Positions 29,719 to 42,570 of a stretch of DNA of 64,000 bases are shown piece after piece. Numbering within the stretch: position 1 is the first letter of the stretch; every line of letters begins with the position of its first letter. The notes under the pieces are model-generated. The model worked only from the letters and a program-made list of their open reading frames with translations, was not told the origin of the DNA and searched no databases. The stretch comes from Lachnospiraceae bacterium. Lineage in GTDB: Bacteria; Bacillota; Clostridia; Lachnospirales; Bianqueaceae. The stretch lies in the NCBI GenBank assembly GCA_022794035.1, contig JAAWDX010000009.1, forward strand, positions 1 to 64,000, written 5' to 3'. Both the position numbers and the translations under genes were made by a program.

Positions 29719-30441
29719 TTACGCTCCATTACACAGATCACGGATGACTTCTGAGGCCATGATGAGGCCCATGACCGAGGGAACATAAGCTAAGCTGCCG
29801 GGGGCCGGACGCGTCCCTTTTTTTTCCGGGTCAGCCGGCAAAAAGGGAGCCGTAGGAGGCTCAGGCGAATAGACAACCTTTAGATGAGGAATGCCGCGTT
29901 TGCGAAGGGCCGTGCGCATCGCCTTGGCCAAGGGGCACATAGAAGTTTTGGTGATATCTGTTATTTTGAATTGAGTAGGATCCAGCTTATTTCCGGCGCC
30001 CATGGCGCTAAGCAGGGGAATCTGATGGTGATAGGCGTATTCAGCTAAAAACAGCTTAGCAGCTACTGTATCGATGGCGTCCACAAGATAATCGGCCTCT
30101 GCAAGAGGGAGCTGCGCAGCCGTTTCTTCAGAAAAAAAGATAGGATAGAGCTCTAGCTGCAGCCGGGGGTTAATATCCAGCAGGCGCGCTTTGGCAGCGT
30201 CCGTTTTGAGATGGCCAACCGTAGATTCAAGGGCGAAAAGCTGACGGTTGATATTGGAACGGGCAATATGATCATGATCAACTAAAACGAGCCGTCCGAT
30301 ACCGGTGCGAGCAAGCGCCTCCGCTACATAAGAGCCGACACCGCCAAGCCCAAAAAGAATAACGGTCTTGGTCTGCAGTAAAGAAAGGGCCTCTTCACCC
30401 AGCAGATAGGAGGAGCGGCAAAAGCGCTCATCTATTGACAT
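29719..30441 (-). CDS. tcdA: tRNA threonylcarbamoyladenosine dehydratase
   Basis: A 240-residue E1-like ThiF-fold enzyme that uses ATP to cyclise t6A37 of tRNAs to ct6A. Seen: GLGGVGSYVAEALARTGIG nucleotide-binding motif (about 31-49), the VDHD acidic motif, SNINRQL Arg finger, and MGAGNKLDP with ITKTSMCPLAK in the C-terminal half as in E. coli TcdA. It overlaps the preceding marR-type gene by ten bases, and its AGGTGAT ribosome site lies within that gene. Confidence 0.88.
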   Translation of the reverse strand: MSIDERFCRSSYLLGEEALSLLQTKTVILFGLGGVGSYVAEALARTGIGRLVLVDHDHIARSNINRQLFALESTVGHLKTDAAKARLLDINPRLQLELYPIFFSEETAAQLPLAEADYLVDAIDTVAAKLFLAEYAYHHQIPLLSAMGAGNKLDPTQFKITDITKTSMCPLAKAMRTALRKRGIPHLKVVYSPEPPTAPFLPADPEKKGTRPAPGSLAYVPSVMGLIMASEVIRDLCNGA

Positions 30442-30902
30442 GACGGATCACCTGCAGCATGCGAAGACTTGGATTCGCGGCTGTCTACATATTCTTTCGC
30501 GCGGTTGGCCACACGGTCTAATAAGGAGGACAGAAGAGAGAGCTCCTCTTCGGTGAATCCGTCTGTTAGGTATTCTCGCCAGGACTGATGAATATCCAGA
30601 ATAACAGGAAAAAGCGCCAGCGCCTTTTCCGTGGGATAGACCAGCAAAACCCGCTTATCTGTGGCTGAATATTCTCTGGTGACAAAGCCATTTTCTTCTA
30701 AATGGGCCAGCTGACGGGCAATATTGCTTTTATTGATATAAATGAGCTTACTAAGCTGCTCCTGCGAAATACCAGGCGTACGGCATATATGGGTAATGAT
30801 CGAATGCCATCCTCCACGCAGCCCTGTGCCGGCCAGATGATCTGTATGGAACTGCATGGCACAGCGGCTGATGGTAGTGATATTTTTGGTAAATGAATTC
30901 AT
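30432..30902 (-). CDS. MarR-family transcriptional regulator
   Basis: A 156-residue winged-helix protein. The recognition region runs from ICRTPGISQEQLSKLIYINKSN (about 45-66) to the wing TREYSATDKRVLLVYPT (about 83-99). The start ATG 30902 lies one base after the typA stop codon and shows no Shine-Dalgarno site, so translation is probably coupled to typA. A longer in-frame reading that runs back through typA is not real. It may control its own operon or an efflux system elsewhere; the ligand is unknown. Confidence 0.85.
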   Translation of the reverse strand: MNSFTKNITTISRCAMQFHTDHLAGTGLRGGWHSIITHICRTPGISQEQLSKLIYINKSNIARQLAHLEENGFVTREYSATDKRVLLVYPTEKALALFPVILDIHQSWREYLTDGFTEEELSLLSSLLDRVANRAKEYVDSRESKSSHAAGDPSCQ

Positions 30903-30903
30903 T

Positions 30904-32733
30904 TTATTTGTTTGCATTTGTATGATTGCGGGCCTTAGCGCGCAGCCCTGCTTCCAGAATTTGCTTACGCATGCGAATGCTCTTGGGGGTGATCTCCACC
31001 AGCTCATCATCGGCGATGAATTCAAGGCATTCTTCCAGAGACATCTCACGTGCAGGGGTGAGACGCAGAGATTCATCTGCGGAAGAGGAGCGCATATTGG
31101 TTGCATGTTTTTTCTTGCATACGTTGACAACAATATCATCGGCGCGTGAGCTTTCGCCAACGATCATGCCTTCATAAACCTGAACGCCGGGGCCGATAAA
31201 AAGAGAACCGCGTTCCTGAGCGTTGAACAGGCCGTAGGTAACGGCTTCACCCGGCTCATGGGCGATCAGAGAGCCGCGCGTTCTGGGGGCAATTTCACCT
31301 TTAAAGGGTTTAAAGCTATGAAATACATGGTTGATGACGGCAGTACCGCGCGTTTCTGTCATTAGCTGAGAGCGGTATCCGATGAGGCCGCGGGAAGGAA
31401 TTAAAAATTCCAGCCGACTGTAGCCGCCCTGTGTGGGCATCATATTGAGCAGCTCTGCCTTGCGCAGACTGGCGCCCTCCATTAAAACACCGGTGTATTC
31501 ATCGGGCAGATCTACGACTAATTCCTCATAGGGCTCCCACACCTGCCCATTGACGATTTTTGTAATGACCTGCGGTTTTGAAACAGCAAATTCATAGCCC
31601 TGGCGCCGCATGTTTTCAACCAGTACAGAGAGATGCAGCTCACCGCGGCCGGAAACGACAAAGGAATCCGGAGAATCCGTTTCTTCTACCCGCAGGGAGA
31701 TATTGGATTCAAGCTCCTTGAAAAGCCGGTCTCTTAAATGGCGGGATGTCACATAGTCGCCTTCTTTGCCGGCAAAGGGGCTTTTATTAACGGTAAAGGT
31801 CATAGAGAGAACGGGTTCATCAATGGCAACAAAGGGAAGCGGCTCTACATTAGTAGGGCAGCAGATGGTTTCGCCGATGTTGATATCTTTAATGCCCGAT
31901 ACGGCCACAATTTCACCAACGCCGGCTTCCTCTACCGGTACACGCTGCATGTCGTTATATACATAGAGATTGGTGAGCTTGATGGTGGTCGACACACCGT
32001 TTTTGCGGCAGATGACGGCTGTATCACCCACATGGATCTGTCCGCGGTCAATACGGCCGATGGCAATACGGCCGGTATAGGCATCATAATCAATATTGGA
32101 AACAAGCAGCTGCAGATCACCGTCCATATGTCCTTCCGGAGAAGGGATCGTATGAATGATAGCATCAAAGAGGGGTTTCATATCCTGACCAGGCTGTGTA
32201 TAGTCAGTAGAAGCCCAGCCTTCCTTAGCAGAGGCATAGATCACAGGCGAATCCAGCTGTTCGTCGGAGGCCCCCAGATCCAGTAAAAGCTCTAGGACCT
32301 CGTCTACGACTTCATCCGGACGAGCCATAGGGCGGTCTACCTTGTTGATGACGATGATTGGCGTCAGGTTTAGATCCAAGGCCTTTTTCAGCACAAAACG
32401 AGTCTGCGGCATGCAGCCTTCATAGGCGTCAACTAACAAAAGGACACCGTTGGCCATTTTTAGCGAACGCTCGACTTCACCGCCAAAATCAGCATGGCCG
32501 GGCGTGTCAATGATGTTGATTTTAAAGCCATCATAGTGCAGGGAGGTATTCTTAGCTAAAATTGTGATGCCGCGTTCGCGTTCCAGATCATTGGAATCCA
32601 TAACGCGTTCGACAACCTCCTGATTTTCGCGAAAGATACCGCTCTGCGCCAATAATGCATCTACTAAAGTGGTTTTGCCGTGGTCAACATGAGCGATGAT
32701 AGCAATATTACGAATTTTTGTTTGATCTAACAT
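30904..32733 (-). CDS. typA: Ribosome-associated GTPase TypA/BipA
   Basis: A 609-residue translational GTPase. G1 [18 protein letters not shown]3 DTPGHADF and G4 NKVD are intact; EF-G-like domains II, III and V and the BipA-specific C-terminal domain (GLIGYRSQLMTETRGTA, then RPGE-like and KHATNMRSS segments) follow. BipA binds the 70S ribosome and assists 50S assembly and stress translation. AAGGAAGG precedes ATG 32733. It heads a four-gene operon. Confidence 0.95.
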   Translation of the reverse strand: MLDQTKIRNIAIIAHVDHGKTTLVDALLAQSGIFRENQEVVERVMDSNDLERERGITILAKNTSLHYDGFKINIIDTPGHADFGGEVERSLKMANGVLLLVDAYEGCMPQTRFVLKKALDLNLTPIIVINKVDRPMARPDEVVDEVLELLLDLGASDEQLDSPVIYASAKEGWASTDYTQPGQDMKPLFDAIIHTIPSPEGHMDGDLQLLVSNIDYDAYTGRIAIGRIDRGQIHVGDTAVICRKNGVSTTIKLTNLYVYNDMQRVPVEEAGVGEIVAVSGIKDINIGETICCPTNVEPLPFVAIDEPVLSMTFTVNKSPFAGKEGDYVTSRHLRDRLFKELESNISLRVEETDSPDSFVVSGRGELHLSVLVENMRRQGYEFAVSKPQVITKIVNGQVWEPYEELVVDLPDEYTGVLMEGASLRKAELLNMMPTQGGYSRLEFLIPSRGLIGYRSQLMTETRGTAVINHVFHSFKPFKGEIAPRTRGSLIAHEPGEAVTYGLFNAQERGSLFIGPGVQVYEGMIVGESSRADDIVVNVCKKKHATNMRSSSADESLRLTPAREMSLEECLEFIADDELVEITPKSIRMRKQILEAGLRAKARNHTNANK

Positions 32734-32820: not shown

Positions 32821-34104
32821 TTAGAAAAGAGTAGGCTTTCGGCGAAAAAAGTACGATACTAATAGTATGGGGAGGAGCATCACTAAAGCTGCATCAAAGA
32901 AATGCGTATGAGAGAGGGGCGGGGTAGCCGCTGAAAGGGAGGTGATCTGAAGAAGAGGAGCAGTAAGACGATGCAGTACGATTTGGAAAAGCAGAGGAGA
33001 AACAGAGGCCCTGCATGGAATGGAGGCAATGAGCTCCTGCTTTTGATAATACTCAATATAGCCAACGGGCTCCTGGGATAAAAGGGGCAAGGATAAGGTG
33101 GCAGGGAGAAGCAGGTGCATTTCAAGATCAGAGGGGGAGGAAGCATCAGGACTGATATATAGAAGATCCTGCATCGTGAGAATATCGGCATATCCTAATT
33201 TAGAAGCGTTTTGATAGATCGGAATTTTGCTGACTAACGTGCCTTTAATAGGGTAAATAACAGGGGAAAAGCTTTGATGAGCATATTGCAGAAGTCGGGA
33301 ATGCTCCTGTGCGCTTTCAGAAATTGTTTTTTGATTGACTGTGATGGCAATCAAGGTAAGATCCTTCTGCTGATCATAGGAAAGCAAAAAGGTACCATCC
33401 TTAAAGGAGCTGTTTAGATAGCCGCCTAAACAGGTGGGCATATAGGAAGCTTCTTCTGGAAGCGTAAGGGGATGGGTGCGATTATAAAAGCGGGATTCCG
33501 AAGTTTGATTGGTAGGAAGAATTTCATATTGAGGTGTCCGTAAAATAGAACGCAGACAAGGGATTTGCCAAAAGGCCTTTGCAATCCTTAGAAGATCTGA
33601 GGGCGTGGTAGAGCAGGCAGAAGGGGAAGCAGCCAAAGAGGATATATGCGTATGAACGGCTCCAAGCGCTTCTGCTTTTTGATTCATTAACGCGATGAAA
33701 TCTTCAAAGGAGGAGGCAATATGGAGCGCTAAAGCACGCAGCGCATCATCAGCATCAGAAAGCAGCATGGCCGCCAGGCAGTCCTGAACCGGAAGCGTTT
33801 CGCCTATTTCGAGATACATGCGAGGAGCAGAATCATTTAAACGCAGCGCAGCTTCGCTTACCGTTACCTGCTCAAGCGGCGCCGTATGCTCTGCAATCAC
33901 AATGGCGGCCAGCAGCTTCATAAAGCCAGAAGGATACATCTGAATATCACTATTTAATTCGTATAAAATTTGGTCGTTTTCCAGACAGCCCAATATGACG
34001 GCAGAGGAGGAAGAGGGGGGAAAATCGGCAGATACAGAGTAGGGAAAAAGGAAGCTGAAAAAAATGGATAAGAATGCGCAGATAAGCTGGCACTTTTTTT
34101 TCAT
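32821..34104 (-). CDS. DacA-like (peptidase S11) protein with degenerate active site
   Basis: A 427-residue exported protein with a signal peptide (about 1-26), an S11 D-alanyl-D-alanine carboxypeptidase-like domain, a beta domain and a C-terminal anchor (about 400-422, then RRKP). In active relatives the motifs are SxxK, SxN and KTG. Here the aligned positions read PSGFMK (58-63; Gly where the nucleophile Ser should be, Ser shifted one place), SDA (116-118; Asn lost) and LGG (226-228; Lys-Thr lost). It therefore looks catalytically dead, perhaps a peptidoglycan-binding or scaffold protein. ATG 34104 has GGAGG eight bases upstream. It is divergent from comEA. Confidence 0.75.
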   Translation of the reverse strand: MKKKCQLICAFLSIFFSFLFPYSVSADFPPSSSSAVILGCLENDQILYELNSDIQMYPSGFMKLLAAIVIAEHTAPLEQVTVSEAALRLNDSAPRMYLEIGETLPVQDCLAAMLLSDADDALRALALHIASSFEDFIALMNQKAEALGAVHTHISSLAASPSACSTTPSDLLRIAKAFWQIPCLRSILRTPQYEILPTNQTSESRFYNRTHPLTLPEEASYMPTCLGGYLNSSFKDGTFLLSYDQQKDLTLIAITVNQKTISESAQEHSRLLQYAHQSFSPVIYPIKGTLVSKIPIYQNASKLGYADILTMQDLLYISPDASSPSDLEMHLLLPATLSLPLLSQEPVGYIEYYQKQELIASIPCRASVSPLLFQIVLHRLTAPLLQITSLSAATPPLSHTHFFDAALVMLLPILLVSYFFRRKPTLF

Positions 34105-34152
34105 AAACAACACCTCCGTAAATGGAATAGACAATAAAAGAAAGGAACATGT

Positions 34153-34776
34153 GTGGAAAAGATATATATTTCAAAAAAGGGGCTTCAAAAAGTAGTTTTG
34201 CTGATCCTGATTCTTAGCATGGGTATGATTTGGTATAATCATTCAGAAAATGAAGAAATATCTTTTGAAGAAGAAACAGAACCAGGGTCCATACTCTTTA
34301 ATGAAGAGGAGGATTCCTTAAAGGAAAAAGAAAAGCAGAGCGAGGCATGGTTGGGGGTGCACGTAACAGGAGCCGTTTGCTTCCCGGATCAGATTTATTA
34401 CCTGCAGGAAGGAGCACGGGTGGGCGATGCGATTGGCGCAGCAGGAGGAGCGCAAAAGGAAGCAGATTTAAGCCGTCTCAATCTGGCAGGCTATATTCAT
34501 GATGGTCAAAGAATTTACGTACCGCGTCAAGGAGAGATATGGGAAGAGAGTGAAAATAGCGCAGAGGAAAATCCTCAAAACCTCTTGACCAATATCAACT
34601 TAGCAACTAAAATAGAATTATTGAGTTTACCCGGAATAGGGGAGACCTATGCGCAAAGAATCTTAGATTATCGTGAAGAGCACGGGCCTTTTAAAACCAT
34701 CGAGGACATTATGAAGGTGAGAGGAATCGGCGAGAGCAAATTCGCGGAGTTAAAAGATAGAATTACAGTCGAGTAA
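34153..34776 (+). CDS. comEA: ComEA-type competence DNA-binding protein
   Basis: A 207-residue membrane-anchored protein: N-terminal helix (about 10-28), an acidic linker, an SLBB-type domain (VHVTGAV...VGDAIGAAGG...GQRIYVP, about 69-125) and a C-terminal tandem helix-hairpin-helix DNA-binding domain (NINLATKIELLSLPGIGETYAQRI...VRGIGESKF). ComEA receives double-stranded DNA outside the membrane during uptake through ComEC. GTG 34153 is the start, after AAAGGAA. It is the first gene of the block leading to comEC, with a two-component system inserted between. Confidence 0.9.
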   Translation: MEKIYISKKGLQKVVLLILILSMGMIWYNHSENEEISFEEETEPGSILFNEEEDSLKEKEKQSEAWLGVHVTGAVCFPDQIYYLQEGARVGDAIGAAGGAQKEADLSRLNLAGYIHDGQRIYVPRQGEIWEESENSAEENPQNLLTNINLATKIELLSLPGIGETYAQRILDYREEHGPFKTIEDIMKVRGIGESKFAELKDRITVE

Positions 34777-34788
34777 AGGGGTATGAAG

Positions 34789-35475
34789 ATGGCTACAAAA
34801 GTATTGGTCGTAGATGATGAGAAATTTATTGTTAAAGGGATAAAATTTAGTCTGGAACAGGATGGGATGGAAGTAGATGCCGCCTATGACGGGGAGGAGG
34901 CCTATAATCTCATTCAGGAAAAAAATTATGATATCATTATTTTAGATGTGATGCTGCCCAAGATGGATGGCGTACAGGTGTGCCAGCAGGTACGGGAATT
35001 TTCTGCGGTTCCGATTCTGATGCTGACAGCAAAGGGTGAGGATATGGATAAAATATTAGGGCTTGAGTACGGAGCCGATGATTATATGACAAAGCCATTT
35101 AATATTTTAGAGCTTAAAGCAAGGATTAAGGCGATCCTGCGGCGCTACCGCCATCATGAGGAAAAGGAGAGCAGCGTACAGGAATTCCGCGATCTAAAGA
35201 TTGATTATGACAGCCGCCGGGTATTTATTAAGGATAAAGGAGAAGCAGATTTAACAGCCAAGGAATTTGATCTGCTAGAGCTATTGTCTAAAAATGTTGG
35301 AAAGGTCTACAGCCGAGAAAAGCTTTTGGATGTAGTTTGGGGATATGATTATCCAGGAGAAGTGCGGACGGTGGATGTGCATGTTCGGCGATTGAGAGAA
35401 AAAATAGAAGCAAACCCCGGAGACCCCTTGTATATTCAGACCAAATGGGGCGTGGGATATTATTTTAAGGGCTGA
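34789..35475 (+). CDS. OmpR/PhoB-family response regulator
   Basis: A 228-residue two-domain regulator: receiver (acidic DDE at 9-11, phospho-acceptor Asp53 in ILDVMLPKMDG, Lys in TKPF) and winged-helix DNA-binding domain (LTAKEFDLLELL, REKLLDVVWGYDYPGEVRTVDVHV, about 130-228). The start is set at ATG 34789, seven bases after AAAGGGG; ATG 34783 is too near. The cognate kinase begins five bases after the stop. Confidence 0.93.
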   Translation: MATKVLVVDDEKFIVKGIKFSLEQDGMEVDAAYDGEEAYNLIQEKNYDIIILDVMLPKMDGVQVCQQVREFSAVPILMLTAKGEDMDKILGLEYGADDYMTKPFNILELKARIKAILRRYRHHEEKESSVQEFRDLKIDYDSRRVFIKDKGEADLTAKEFDLLELLSKNVGKVYSREKLLDVVWGYDYPGEVRTVDVHVRRLREKIEANPGDPLYIQTKWGVGYYFKG

Positions 35476-35480
35476 CGAGA

Positions 35481-36926
35481 ATGATACAATCAAAAAAAGT
35501 TTCATGGTATCGGAGTGTTCAGTTCAAGCTGTTTGCCTGCATAACGCTCATATACATCGTATCCTCCGTCATTTTTGGAAATCTATTGTATCATGTATGG
35601 GAAAATTACTGGGTGAATCAGAAGATCACAGAAATCAGCCGCTATGCTAACTTTCTGGCAAGTGATATTGCAATCAACCGGCTGACATCAGAAGAAGATC
35701 CAGATCAGAATTTGAATCACGAGCTTCAAAGCTTTAGCCGTCTGTACAGCTACGCAAGAGTCATGATTTTAGATGAAAAGGCTATGGTGATTCAGGATTC
35801 TTCTCAAACAAAAATGGGAAGATATATTGTAAACGATGATGTTTTGATGGCTCTATCCGGTAAAATTGCGAATATTCAGGAGGATTCCTTTGTTCGCCTG
35901 GCAATTCCGGTGACGGATTATTCAGGGAGTACGGTCGATGGTGTGGTATATGTTTTTTTCTCCGTGGACACGCTTTTGGAATCGCTTTCCATCAATCAAG
36001 GCAATATTACGCTGCTTCAGTTCGCGATTGGCGTTGCGGTCTGCGCTATATTCTATGCCTTGATTGCTGTCTTTACCAGACCCTTTAAATCTATTTTAAA
36101 TTGGCTAAGGCAGGTATCAAACGGAAATGCGGAGGCGCCGATTGATCTGCAGCGACAGGATGATTACGGATTGATGGTGGAAGCCATACAGGATGTCACG
36201 CATGATTTGATTGCGATTGATCGTTCTCGTAAGGAATTTGTGTCCAATGTATCTCACGAATTAAAAACGCCGCTCAGTTCAATTAAGGTATTGACGGAGT
36301 CCCTGCTTCTGCAGGAAAGTGTTCCGGAGCCTATGTACAAAGAATTTTTACAGGATATCAACAGTGAAATAGACAGGCAGACGACGATTGTCAATGATCT
36401 GCTTACTTTAGTGCGCTTGGAGGAAGGAGAGAATGCGCTCAATATCAGTTCCTTTGTCTTAAATGACATGACGGAGGATATTTTAAAGCGTTTAAAACCG
36501 CTTGCTCAGGGAAAGAATGTAGAGCTTGTGATTGAAAGTATTCGTGAAGTAGAGCTGGAAGCTGATGAAACAAAATTAACGCTGGCGCTTTCTAATTTAA
36601 TCCAAAATGGAGTCAAATATAATAAAGAGGGCGGCCAGGTCAAAGTGGTGATTGACAGTGATCATTTGAATGCGTTAATTACGGTAACCGATACAGGAAT
36701 TGGAATTGAGAAGGAGCACTTTAATAAATTGTTTCAGCGTTTCTATCGCGTAGACAAGGCAAGAGATAGAGAAGCAGGCGGTTCTGGATTGGGGCTTTCC
36801 ATTGTAAAGCAGATTATTACTTTGCATAAGGGAACCATTTCAGTAGAAAGCGAATTAGGAGAGGGCACGAGCTTTTTAGTGAAGCTTCCCTTGATTCAAG
36901 TGATTGAACAGGAGGAAGAGGAATGA
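35481..36926 (+). CDS. Sensor histidine kinase
   Basis: A 481-residue membrane kinase with two transmembrane segments (about 15-38 and 177-199) flanking a 140-residue extracytoplasmic sensor, then a HAMP-like linker, a HisKA domain with His259 in SHELKTPLSSIK, and an HATPase_c domain (NLIQNGVKYN, DTGIGI, GGSGLGLSIV). It pairs with the response regulator just upstream. The 3' end overlaps the GerMN lipoprotein start by four bases (ATGA), which ties the lipoprotein to the signalling unit. Confidence 0.92.
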   Translation: MIQSKKVSWYRSVQFKLFACITLIYIVSSVIFGNLLYHVWENYWVNQKITEISRYANFLASDIAINRLTSEEDPDQNLNHELQSFSRLYSYARVMILDEKAMVIQDSSQTKMGRYIVNDDVLMALSGKIANIQEDSFVRLAIPVTDYSGSTVDGVVYVFFSVDTLLESLSINQGNITLLQFAIGVAVCAIFYALIAVFTRPFKSILNWLRQVSNGNAEAPIDLQRQDDYGLMVEAIQDVTHDLIAIDRSRKEFVSNVSHELKTPLSSIKVLTESLLLQESVPEPMYKEFLQDINSEIDRQTTIVNDLLTLVRLEEGENALNISSFVLNDMTEDILKRLKPLAQGKNVELVIESIREVELEADETKLTLALSNLIQNGVKYNKEGGQVKVVIDSDHLNALITVTDTGIGIEKEHFNKLFQRFYRVDKARDREAGGSGLGLSIVKQIITLHKGTISVESELGEGTSFLVKLPLIQVIEQEEEE

Positions 36927-37972
36927 AAAAATGGGGGAGAATAGGGCTGTTGGCGTTGCTGGCTTTCCTTATGGGCTGTACATCCGCTACGAAAGATATG
37001 AATAGCGAGGAGCAGCTGACAGAATCTGCTTATTTAGAAAAAACAGCTAAAAACACAGAAGAAGTGGCGAACGAAGAAATTATACTTTACTACACAAATC
37101 CTACGGCCACATCGCTTTATAAGGAAGAAAAGGGATATGATTTTTCTGAGAAGAGCAGTGAAGAGATTGTCTGGACGATCTTGCATGATCTGGAGACTGC
37201 AGAAGGACTGGAGGATAAAAGCCTAAAAGAATCTAGTCTGCAATCTATTTTTCCTTCGGGAGTGCTGGATGAGATCGTTGTTCGCTCGGAAGAAAAGGTA
37301 AAGATGGCAGAAGAGGAAGGTAGTACATGTAATATTGTCGAGCTTCATATGACCAAGCTCTATCATGAGATGAGCTTAAATGAAATGGTTGTTTTAAGGA
37401 CGGGAGTAAGCCGAAGTATTTTCTCTGCCGGCATTATAGATCAAATAGAATTTTGGGCCCCTATTTCAAAGGAAGGGGGCGGAGAGAAGCTCATGGATAC
37501 CCTGTCCGCTGATGATAAAGTCATTATCAATCAATATAGCCGGGATTTTTATACAGATGATATCAATGTAACATTGTATTTTGGAAATGCAGACAAAACA
37601 GCACTTAAGGCAGAAACGAGGACGCTTACGCTAACGATGACAGATCCTCTGCCAACAGCAATTATGAAAGCCTTGCTTGCCGGGCCGGTTGAAGAAGGAA
37701 TGACTTCTGTGATTCCGCAGGGGACAATGATAGAAGATGTATTTATTAAAGACAGTGTATGCTATGTGGACTTAAGTGCTGAATTCCAAAAAAATCATTT
37801 GGGAGGAGAATTAGAAGAGACGCTGACGATTTATTCTATTGTGAACTCCTTGCAGGACATTAGCGGGATTCATTATGTGCAGTTTTTGGTCGAAGGGAGA
37901 AAACTGGAATACTATAAGTCATATATGAAAATTGATACGTTCTTAACAGGGGATATGACATTGGTGGAGTGA
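36923..37972 (+). CDS. GerMN-domain lipoprotein
   Basis: A 349-residue lipoprotein with lipobox LMGC (Cys19). A C-terminal GerMN domain is clear (VTLYFGNADK, LLAGPVEEGMTSVIPQGTMIEDVFI, CYVDLSAEF, about 210-325); residues about 55-190 look like a second, diverged GerMN copy, as in Bacillus GerM. It is translationally coupled to the histidine kinase. In actinobacteria the GerMN lipoprotein LpqB works with the MtrAB two-component system, so a partner role is plausible here; a sporulation or germination role as in GerM is the alternative. Confidence 0.82.
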   Translation: MKKWGRIGLLALLAFLMGCTSATKDMNSEEQLTESAYLEKTAKNTEEVANEEIILYYTNPTATSLYKEEKGYDFSEKSSEEIVWTILHDLETAEGLEDKSLKESSLQSIFPSGVLDEIVVRSEEKVKMAEEEGSTCNIVELHMTKLYHEMSLNEMVVLRTGVSRSIFSAGIIDQIEFWAPISKEGGGEKLMDTLSADDKVIINQYSRDFYTDDINVTLYFGNADKTALKAETRTLTLTMTDPLPTAIMKALLAGPVEEGMTSVIPQGTMIEDVFIKDSVCYVDLSAEFQKNHLGGELEETLTIYSIVNSLQDISGIHYVQFLVEGRKLEYYKSYMKIDTFLTGDMTLVE

Positions 37973-37984
37973 ACCCGTCGTGAG

Positions 37985-38030
37985 AAAGGCTTCCAACCGG
38001 TAAGTAAAACGGATTGGAGGCCTTTATGAT
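37985..38030 (+). terminator. Imperfect hairpin, possible attenuator before comEC
   Basis: AAAGGC-T-TCCAA pairs with TTGGA-G-GCCTTT around a 14-base loop region, followed only by a weak T-rich stretch. It may partly stop transcription between the lipoprotein gene and comEC. Confidence 0.45.
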
Positions 38031-38043
38031 TTGAGGAAAAAAG

Positions 38044-40182
38044 ATGAAGAAGCGTCCTATTGTCTGGACATGTTTTGGATATATTGTTTTTTTGCTGATC
38101 ATTTTACTTGTAAAGCCTGAATGGGGAGAGACTCTTTTTAGATGGAGCGCAGCAGAAGAGGAGGTAAAGAAGCGGTATGTGAATACCGGTGAAATACAAG
38201 GAGAGGTTTTATCGGTAGAAATCAAAAAGCAGCAGTATCAAATCAGAATCAGACTGCAGGATGGGACTATTTGTATCGGAATAGTGCCGATAGAAAAGCA
38301 GGTCTTTCCCGGAGATACGATTAAGCTAAAAGGAAAAGTGCGATGGCCAGAGCCGCCTGCCAATCCCGGGGAGTGGGATGGTCAGCTTTACGCAAGAACA
38401 CACCGTTTTTCTTTTTATATGCAGGGCGAGCAGATACAAGTGATAGAAAAAGGAAAAAGAAGCTTGCAGAGGTTGCTTTTTTTGTGGAAGCAGCAGCTTT
38501 CGGATGGTATTGACAGACAATGGAGCATGCCATGGAGCGGCATTATGAAATCCATTTTATTGGGGCAAAGAGGAGAAGTAGAGCCACTGATTAAGGATAC
38601 GTGGAGTCAGGCCGGGATTGCCCATGTGATTGCCATTTCAGGGCTGCATCTAACCGTGCTGTCGCAGGCCGTATTCTGTTTTTTAAAGCGATTTCAAAGG
38701 ATTAGGACGGCTCAAGCAGAAACCATGGCTGTAATATGGCTGTATGTGGTCTTTACAGGCGGTGCCATAGCGACGCTGAGGGCAGCGTTGATGTTTACCA
38801 TCCAAACATTGGCAGCTCTTTTAAACCGAGAGGAGGATACGCCGACCACGCTTGCTTTAACAGCAGGGATTCTTTTGCTGATACAACCATTATATCTTTT
38901 GGAGGCTGGGTTTTGGCTGTCTTTTTCAGCAGTACTGGCGCTCCGGTATGGAAGAGTATGGATTATGTCATTGCCTTTTCTTCCTTATCGAATCAGGAGA
39001 AAAATAGCGGCATCCTTAGCGGTAAGTCTTATGGTTACCCCCATTTCATTATGGTTTTTTTATCAGAGCTCTATTTGGGGATTTGTTTTAAACTTTTGGG
39101 TGCTGCCGGCAATGGGGGCTGTTATTCCAATAGGACTGGCCTCTCTTATGCTGGGAGCAATTCATCCGGCGCTGGGGGCTGGTTTTTCAGAAGTGGTACG
39201 ATTTATTTTATGGAGTTTTCAAAAGGGAAGCGAACTTTTTTTGCAAATACCGGGAGGAATGCTGCGCGGACAGCCGTCATGGTACAAGCTGATCGTCTAT
39301 TATTTGCTTTTAGGCAGTGTGATTTATTATTTTTCAAAGCCATCCCCGTACGGCAAGAGGATGGTGTATGGTCTATGTCTATCCGTACTGACGTTTATTT
39401 TGTTTTATCGGGTTTCTTTTTGGCGCATTATCTATTTGGATGTTGGACAAGGAGACTGTGCTGTGATAGAATGGAAGAACAGGGTGTGGATTATCGATGC
39501 AGGTCCGCAGTATGATTCGGTTTTAAAGCCATATTTGCTGCAAAGAGGTATTAAAGAGATTGAGGGAATTATTTTGTCGCATCCGGATTGGGATCATATA
39601 GAGGGGCTGCTTGCACTCTCAGAGGATTCGAATTTTAAGATTAAAGGATTGTGGGAAGCGCAGGAGAAAGTACAGGAGACCGAATATCGGCAGCAGCTGG
39701 AGCAAAATATCAGCAGGCAAGGCGGAGAAATCAGAAAAATCAGGGCCGGATATCAGCTGTCCTATAACGGAATGCACTGGAAAGCGATATCGCCGGTTAA
39801 GGAATATCCTGATATCAACCAAAGCTCTCTGGTTGTGCAGTTTCAAATAGAAGATATAAAGTTTCTTTTTACAGGTGATATAGATGTATATACAGAAGCA
39901 GATCAGGCTGGTCTATGGGAAAAGGTACAGATTCTCAAAGTGGCACACCATGGCTCCCGAAGCTCTTCTTCTTTAGAGTTTTTAATTAAAGTAGATCCTA
40001 GATTAGCCGTAATCAGCTGTGAACGTCAGCATGCCTATGGCCATCCGCATCCGGAAGTGCTTGAGCGGCTGCAGAAAGAGAATATTGAATGTGTTGTTAC
40101 GGATGATGCAGGAGCAGTTTGGGTTGAGAATCGATGGGGAAAGGTTTGTTATTCTACCTTTAAAGAGGGAGGCACAGAGTGA
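38044..40182 (+). CDS. comEC: ComEC/Rec2 DNA uptake channel
   Basis: A 712-residue polytopic membrane protein with the three ComEC parts: N-terminal DUF4131/OB-like region (about 45-140), a competence membrane domain (about 170-450, GIAHVIAISGLHLTVLS) and a C-terminal metallo-beta-lactamase-like domain (YLDVGQGDCAVIEW, IDAGP, LSHPDWDHIEGL, FTGDI, VAHHGS, about 460-700). It imports single-stranded DNA across the membrane. GAGG lies upstream of ATG 38044. It overlaps holA by four bases. Confidence 0.93.
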   Translation: MKKRPIVWTCFGYIVFLLIILLVKPEWGETLFRWSAAEEEVKKRYVNTGEIQGEVLSVEIKKQQYQIRIRLQDGTICIGIVPIEKQVFPGDTIKLKGKVRWPEPPANPGEWDGQLYARTHRFSFYMQGEQIQVIEKGKRSLQRLLFLWKQQLSDGIDRQWSMPWSGIMKSILLGQRGEVEPLIKDTWSQAGIAHVIAISGLHLTVLSQAVFCFLKRFQRIRTAQAETMAVIWLYVVFTGGAIATLRAALMFTIQTLAALLNREEDTPTTLALTAGILLLIQPLYLLEAGFWLSFSAVLALRYGRVWIMSLPFLPYRIRRKIAASLAVSLMVTPISLWFFYQSSIWGFVLNFWVLPAMGAVIPIGLASLMLGAIHPALGAGFSEVVRFILWSFQKGSELFLQIPGGMLRGQPSWYKLIVYYLLLGSVIYYFSKPSPYGKRMVYGLCLSVLTFILFYRVSFWRIIYLDVGQGDCAVIEWKNRVWIIDAGPQYDSVLKPYLLQRGIKEIEGIILSHPDWDHIEGLLALSEDSNFKIKGLWEAQEKVQETEYRQQLEQNISRQGGEIRKIRAGYQLSYNGMHWKAISPVKEYPDINQSSLVVQFQIEDIKFLFTGDIDVYTEADQAGLWEKVQILKVAHHGSRSSSSLEFLIKVDPRLAVISCERQHAYGHPHPEVLERLQKENIECVVTDDAGAVWVENRWGKVCYSTFKEGGTE

Positions 40183-41589: not shown

Positions 41590-41631
41590 GTTTTATGTAA
41601 AAATAGAAACGAAGCGGTGAAAGCTGCTAAA

Positions 41632-41669
41632 GAGCACCTTTTAAGCGAAAGGCTTAAAGGGTGTTTTTT
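41632..41669 (+). terminator. Intrinsic terminator after rpsT
   Basis: GCACCTTTTAAGC pairs with GCTTAAAGGGTG(T) around a short GAAAG loop, followed by TTTTTT. Confidence 0.88.
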
Positions 41670-41733
41670 GTATATTTTTTTATATTTCGTCAAGAATAGA
41701 AGACATATATATGAAAGGAAAGAGGCTAGATCG

Positions 41734-42570
41734 ATGAGAACAGATATAGCGCTGGAAGCATGTTTAAACGCAGCGGAAGAAATAACGGGGGCGGAGTGGA
41801 CACAGGAAAACGGGGAAGACAAGGTCGTTGTGTCCACTGTGAAGATTACTACGCCAGAGGGCGCAAAACGTTTAGGCCGACCGATGGGAAAATATATTAC
41901 TCTGGAATGTCCTTATTTGAGAGAGAATACGTTGGAAATCCACGAACGAATTATTGAGGGCCTGACTAAGATTTGGAAGGACTTTTTAGATACCTTTTCT
42001 AAAGCAAATTCTATTTTGGTGGTAGGGCTGGGAAACCGAAGGGTGACGGCCGATGCGCTGGGTCCGCAGGTTGTGGATCAGGTGCTGGCAACCAGACATA
42101 TCCGTGAGCAGCTGCCAAAGGAATGGAAGGGGAATTTGGGAGTGGTTTCGGCGCTGGCGCCGGGTGTGATGGGACAGACGGGAATAGAAACGGGAGAGAT
42201 CATTGAGGCGCTAGTGAAGGCGATTAGTCCGGATGTTGTGATTGCGATTGATGCTTTGGCGGCAGGTTCTATAGAGCGTCTGGTGAATACGATTCAGATC
42301 TGCGATACAGGCATTCAGCCAGGAGCGGGGATGGGAAACCGCAGACGTGAGCTGTCGGAGAAGACTTTAGGCGTACCGGTGCTTGCGGTGGGGGTGCCTA
42401 CCGTGGTGGATGCATCAGATATTGCTGAAAAGGAAGATATGGATGCCTACTATGTGACGCCGAAAGATATGGATGTAGTGATGAAACGGCTTAGTCTGAT
42501 GATTGCCAGCAGTCTGAATAGGGCGCTGCATCGTTTATCACCAGAAGAACTAAAGGCATATTTATATTAA
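41734..42570 (+). CDS. gpr: Spore germination protease GPR
   Basis: A 278-residue A25-family protease that degrades small acid-soluble DNA-binding proteins when spores germinate. Matching features: RTDIALEA at the very N terminus, VVGLGNRRVTADALGPQVVDQVLATRHI, SALAPGVMGQTGIET and DALAAGSIERL. The start ATG 41734 is eight bases after GAGG and lies downstream of the rpsT terminator. It begins almost exactly where Bacillus GPR is cut during zymogen activation, so little or no prosequence is present. It forms an operon with spoIIP. Confidence 0.93.
   Translation: MRTDIALEACLNAAEEITGAEWTQENGEDKVVVSTVKITTPEGAKRLGRPMGKYITLECPYLRENTLEIHERIIEGLTKIWKDFLDTFSKANSILVVGLGNRRVTADALGPQVVDQVLATRHIREQLPKEWKGNLGVVSALAPGVMGQTGIETGEIIEALVKAISPDVVIAIDALAAGSIERLVNTIQICDTGIQPGAGMGNRRRELSEKTLGVPVLAVGVPTVVDASDIAEKEDMDAYYVTPKDMDVVMKRLSLMIASSLNRALHRLSPEELKAYLY

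Follow-up and report, generated by a model that had tools for sequence, protein, structure and literature searches.

Whether a D,D-carboxypeptidase gene whose catalytic residues are gone still serves its bacterium, or is on its way out of the genome, is the question raised by a peptidase S11 gene in a Lachnospiraceae bacterium. The gene lies within a 64,000-nucleotide stretch of contig JAAWDX010000009.1, referred to here as the window. Its open reading frame starts with ATG and runs for 427 codons with neither stop nor frameshift inside, giving a 427-aa product, and a GGAGG ribosome-binding site stands about 9 nt 5' of the start codon. The features of the locus are:

32821-34104, minus strand: inactive peptidase S11 (DacA/DacF-type) pseudoenzyme, 427 aa (Pfam, motif alignments, AlphaFold2 model)
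34048-34101, minus strand: predicted N-terminal hydrophobic export helix, residues 2-19 (sequence, AlphaFold2 helix)
33916-33927, minus strand: SxTK site, residues 60-63, now G-F-M-K (phmmer, alignment)
33748-33756, minus strand: SxN site, residues 117-119, now D-A-D (phmmer, alignment)
33412-33420, minus strand: KTG site, residues 229-231, now Y-L-N (phmmer, alignment)
32842-32910, minus strand: predicted C-terminal membrane helix, residues 399-421 (sequence, AlphaFold2 model)
34110-34118, minus strand: ribosome-binding site region (GGAGG) 5' of the ATG (sequence)
34153-34776, plus strand: comEA-like gene (SLBB and HHH), divergent neighbour and marker of the orthologous site, outside the system (domains, synteny)
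30904-32733, minus strand: typA/bipA, downstream neighbour, which adjoins comEA where the S11 gene is absent (G001, g5) (domains, synteny)

The protein matched Pfam Peptidase_S11 with 64.7 bits against a curated cutoff of 27.6, which places it in the sequence family; the match to PBP5_C was below threshold (12.8 against 21.2), and the best solved D,D-carboxypeptidase was 4k91 (E 1e-14). An AlphaFold2 model, built on a shallow alignment, reached a mean pLDDT of 71 and a pTM of 0.62, and 339-350 of its residues could be aligned to PBP5 of E. coli (Foldseek E about 1e-22; VIA Z 34). On this model, the protein has the penicillin-binding/DD-peptidase fold, and its helices at residues 2-19 and 399-421 stand where an export signal and a membrane anchor are expected. 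The original prediction of an S11 fold in an intact frame, with a helix at each end, is thus borne out. The protein has its fold, predicted export, C-terminal anchor and domain order in common with S11 D,D-carboxypeptidases such as E. coli PBP5/DacA, B. subtilis DacB (3mfd) and the DacF type.

The catalytic motifs were placed in register by phmmer against B. subtilis DacB and by alignment with 39 homologues from outside the family, all with intact motifs, among which eight catalytic positions are invariant. All three motifs proved lost in the window protein, as had been proposed, and Gly does occupy the nucleophile place: the SxTK site reads G60-F-M62-K63, with the Ser nucleophile and the Thr gone and the Lys still present. 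The two other sites had been read out of register, as SDA and LGG; the true SxN site is D117-A-D119 and the true KTG site is Y229-L-N231, the two glycines of LGG being the ordinary Gly-Gly that precedes KTG. None of the three marks of an active S11 enzyme (SxxK with a Ser nucleophile, SxN, KTG) is present, and in comparison with the active D,D-carboxypeptidases only Lys63 is kept. The protein retains 1/8 catalytic positions versus 33/58 other conserved ones (Fisher p 0.02), a loss beyond chance; four other S11 paralogues in the same genome, about equally divergent, retain 7-8/8 and 33-45/58, respectively. Sequencing error was rejected as a cause, since several codons are changed per motif and relatives are inactivated too. 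At the level of its residues, the active site is destroyed. With Ser60, Thr62, Ser117, Asn119, Lys229, Thr230 and Gly231 replaced, the window protein would be expected neither to cleave D-Ala-D-Ala nor to be acylated by penicillin, that is, to bind it covalently. The four paralogues keep the motifs, one of them with SGA for SxN. This variant, with SxxK and KTG intact, occurs in the S11 paralogues L004 (on C7 of the same genome), L144 and L148, and its presence in viral-contig relatives as well indicates a natural S11 sub-type.

Copies of the same S11 type were found in 7/19 family genomes, namely in the window's genome and in three genomes each of genera g3 and g4, and the alignment reads all seven as inactivated. 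In each of the six g3/g4 copies (6/6), Asn replaces Lys63, and Val or Leu replaces Thr62; at the KTG site a Lys or Arg precedes a deletion of five residues. Position 60 is Gly in four of them and still Ser in two, and SxN reads SAN in five and DAN in G007. None of the seven copies retains Thr62 or the Thr-Gly of KTG, and the replacements mostly differ. Loss of catalytic residues, as aligned here, is therefore shared among the family orthologues, and the expectation that the same substitutions would be fixed in them failed, the window copy differing from the g3/g4 copies at most catalytic positions. Because Thr62 and the Thr-Gly were lost in all seven, inactivation is probably older than the split of the window's family, with later changes made independently. 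Intact orthologues, which the original prediction named as contrary evidence, do exist in the wider order (the 39 homologues above); they refute only a pseudoenzyme common to the whole order, and the idea holds for the family, where every copy is inactivated. In a quick maximum-likelihood tree, the seven inactive copies formed one clade (SH-aLRT 98), of which the window copy was the most divergent member, on a long end branch of 2.44 amino acid changes per site. A profile built from the seven copies themselves was run against 392 genomes of the order; the seven scored 526-725 bits and the next match 225. Judged by one family with very many genera, this order is probably Lachnospirales. A single-protein search of genome contigs gave only one remote relative, and viral contigs held only a few ordinary S11 genes, which were used in the fold alignment.

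The intact homologue often lies divergent to comEA and an OmpR-type regulator (14 loci of the order and L036), so active S11 orthologues share their genomic site with the window gene; the arrangement is retained in g4 and in G003 and G011 of g3. Across much of the order, an active S11 D,D-carboxypeptidase that is exported and membrane-anchored stands divergent to comEA; the window gene is its orthologue, and catalysis was probably lost in the family ancestor. In G007 the S11 gene lies elsewhere and the comEA operon stays. It is absent from the site in a species of the window's genus (G001) and in four g5 genomes, in which typA adjoins comEA directly; comEA stands without an adjacent S11 gene, its operon remaining, in G001, G005, G013, G015 and G016. 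Genus g2 has comEA-comEC without the S11 gene. A tree of neighbouring genes set g3 and g4 (100/100) opposite g1, g2 and g5 (82/85), and as inactive copies occur on both sides of this basal split, deletion is the best reading of the gaps. Taken as a whole, the gene encodes a pseudoenzyme specific to this family; some lineages have kept it and others have deleted it.

Other observations were made around these loci. In the window, positions 34153-40182 form one operon of the comEA-like gene, an OmpR-type regulator, a histidine kinase, a GerMN-domain protein and comEC, and its regulator-kinase-GerMN order resembles MtrAB-LpqB. In two g2 genomes (L108, L110 or L105) comEA adjoins comEC with the two-component genes absent between them, and g2 also has S11-type frames of ~727-745 codons (L058, L059), one with an internal TGA. 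In g3, the inactive S11 gene is separated from typA by a gene for a GDSL-type lipase (L039:3397-4185, L041:10781-11446), and an M55 D-aminopeptidase gene adjoins the inactive gene in G008 (L040:4976-5776). The window has a germination protease gene at 41617-42570 (Peptidase_A25, Gpr), so at least one sporulation gene is present in this lineage. The frame listed at 30432-31160 opens at a TTG inside typA and has its MarR domain only at residues 113-170; the true start of the gene is probably much further in, the first part being a typA shadow.

For the inactive gene in the pair G004/G008, pN was 0.163, pS 0.704 and dN/dS 0.09, and for G003/G011 the values were 0.119, 0.568 and 0.12, with synonymous differences near saturation in both pairs. 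These ratios are similar to those of the neighbours comEA and GerMN, and the inactive g3/g4 copies are under purifying selection. For the window copy, no orthologue close enough for a dN/dS of its own was found among the 19 family genomes or in the 392-genome survey. In a neutral simulation its frame stayed open with p 0.018 after 120 substitutions; the branch of 2.44 implies far more than 120, which places most of this copy's history under selection for an open frame. The proposal of a maintained pseudoenzyme rather than decay therefore stands for g3 and g4; for the window copy the open frame is the one argument, and selection may have relaxed recently.

We consider it likely that the gene is an S11 orthologue that has lost catalysis, kept its fold and anchor, and acts non-enzymatically on the outer side of the membrane. 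An active D,D-carboxypeptidase beside comEA would have lost catalysis in the family ancestor; fold and membrane anchor were retained although the acylating and substrate-stabilising residues had gone, and other lineages of the family have deleted the gene. That it was kept intact in several genera and deleted in others makes a non-enzymatic job most likely. Most probably, the protein would hold on to peptides of the wall or to a partner, which may be among the four other S11 paralogues, and would thereby tune wall trimming, by analogy with the way degenerate LytM proteins act on their enzymes.

The main rival to this non-catalytic role is late decay, in which the inactive protein was functional in the family ancestor, its function is fading in the genus of the window and the still-open frame is a relic. 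The window copy has the longest branch and the most degraded motifs of its clade, and the gene is cleanly absent from G001, apart from 27 bp that may be left over from its 3' end (81% identity, E 0.003). The S11 and comEA start codons are only 48 bp apart (34105-34152), and this divergent region contains no match to a sigma-70 type promoter, scan hits being no better than in shuffled sequence. (In g3/g4 the two start codons are about 100 bp apart, and by eye a TATAAT-like box can be seen between them.) The window copy may therefore be nearing loss. However, neutral drift could have proceeded to only about 0.1 substitutions per nucleotide before a stop became probable, and the 427 codons are uninterrupted, with the ribosome-binding site and fold-critical residues kept, so we regard late decay as unlikely. 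A more specific role, that of a non-catalytic wall-peptide receptor feeding the divergent two-component system (OmpR regulator, kinase and GerMN protein) in an MtrAB-LpqB-like manner, appears quite improbable; if it were true, lineages without the receptor would have lost that input.

Residual catalysis by another arrangement, such as K63 with D117 and D119, is very improbable: the retained Lys and the two Asp at the SxN place would allow it, but the other inactive copies lack the Asp pair (bar one Asp in G007), have Asn for Lys and carry the five-residue deletion in the KTG strand, and an alternative catalytic set was rejected after no common new set was visible across the aligned inactive copies. 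Equally hard to credit is the structural part in DNA uptake originally suggested by the position divergent to comEA, opposite the comEA-RR-HK-GerMN-comEC operon, and it was rejected on gene co-occurrence, since active enzymes hold the same position across the order, so that it predates inactivation and was inherited from active ancestors, and the comEA operon, or comEA adjoining comEC in g2, persists where the S11 gene is missing (G001, g5, g2) or has moved (G007).

Pseudoenzymes occur in most enzyme families, and among wall proteins EnvC and NlpD are degenerate LytM regulators of wall hydrolases. The degenerate LytM protein DipM likewise regulates wall hydrolases (PMC10336132). As a working analogy, the window protein resembles these as an inactive member of a wall-peptidase family retained as an exported protein; the LytM fold is unrelated to that of S11, and any likeness in role would be by analogy. 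Inactive metallopeptidases that lost their catalytic residues and retained their fold under selection have been reviewed (PMC11266112), whereas the window protein is bacterial and belongs to a serine penicillin-binding family. No S11 pseudoenzyme was found described in the open-access literature, and what is new here is an inactive variant of this known family.

The locus offers a syntenic series for a single gene, active across the order, inactive under selection in some genera and cleanly lost in others. We call this series dated, and through it the passage from enzyme to pseudoenzyme and on to deletion can be tested step by step within a family of penicillin-binding proteins. To annotate the inactive copies of the family as D-alanyl-D-alanine carboxypeptidases would be a mistake, and these copies should not be counted as beta-lactam targets.
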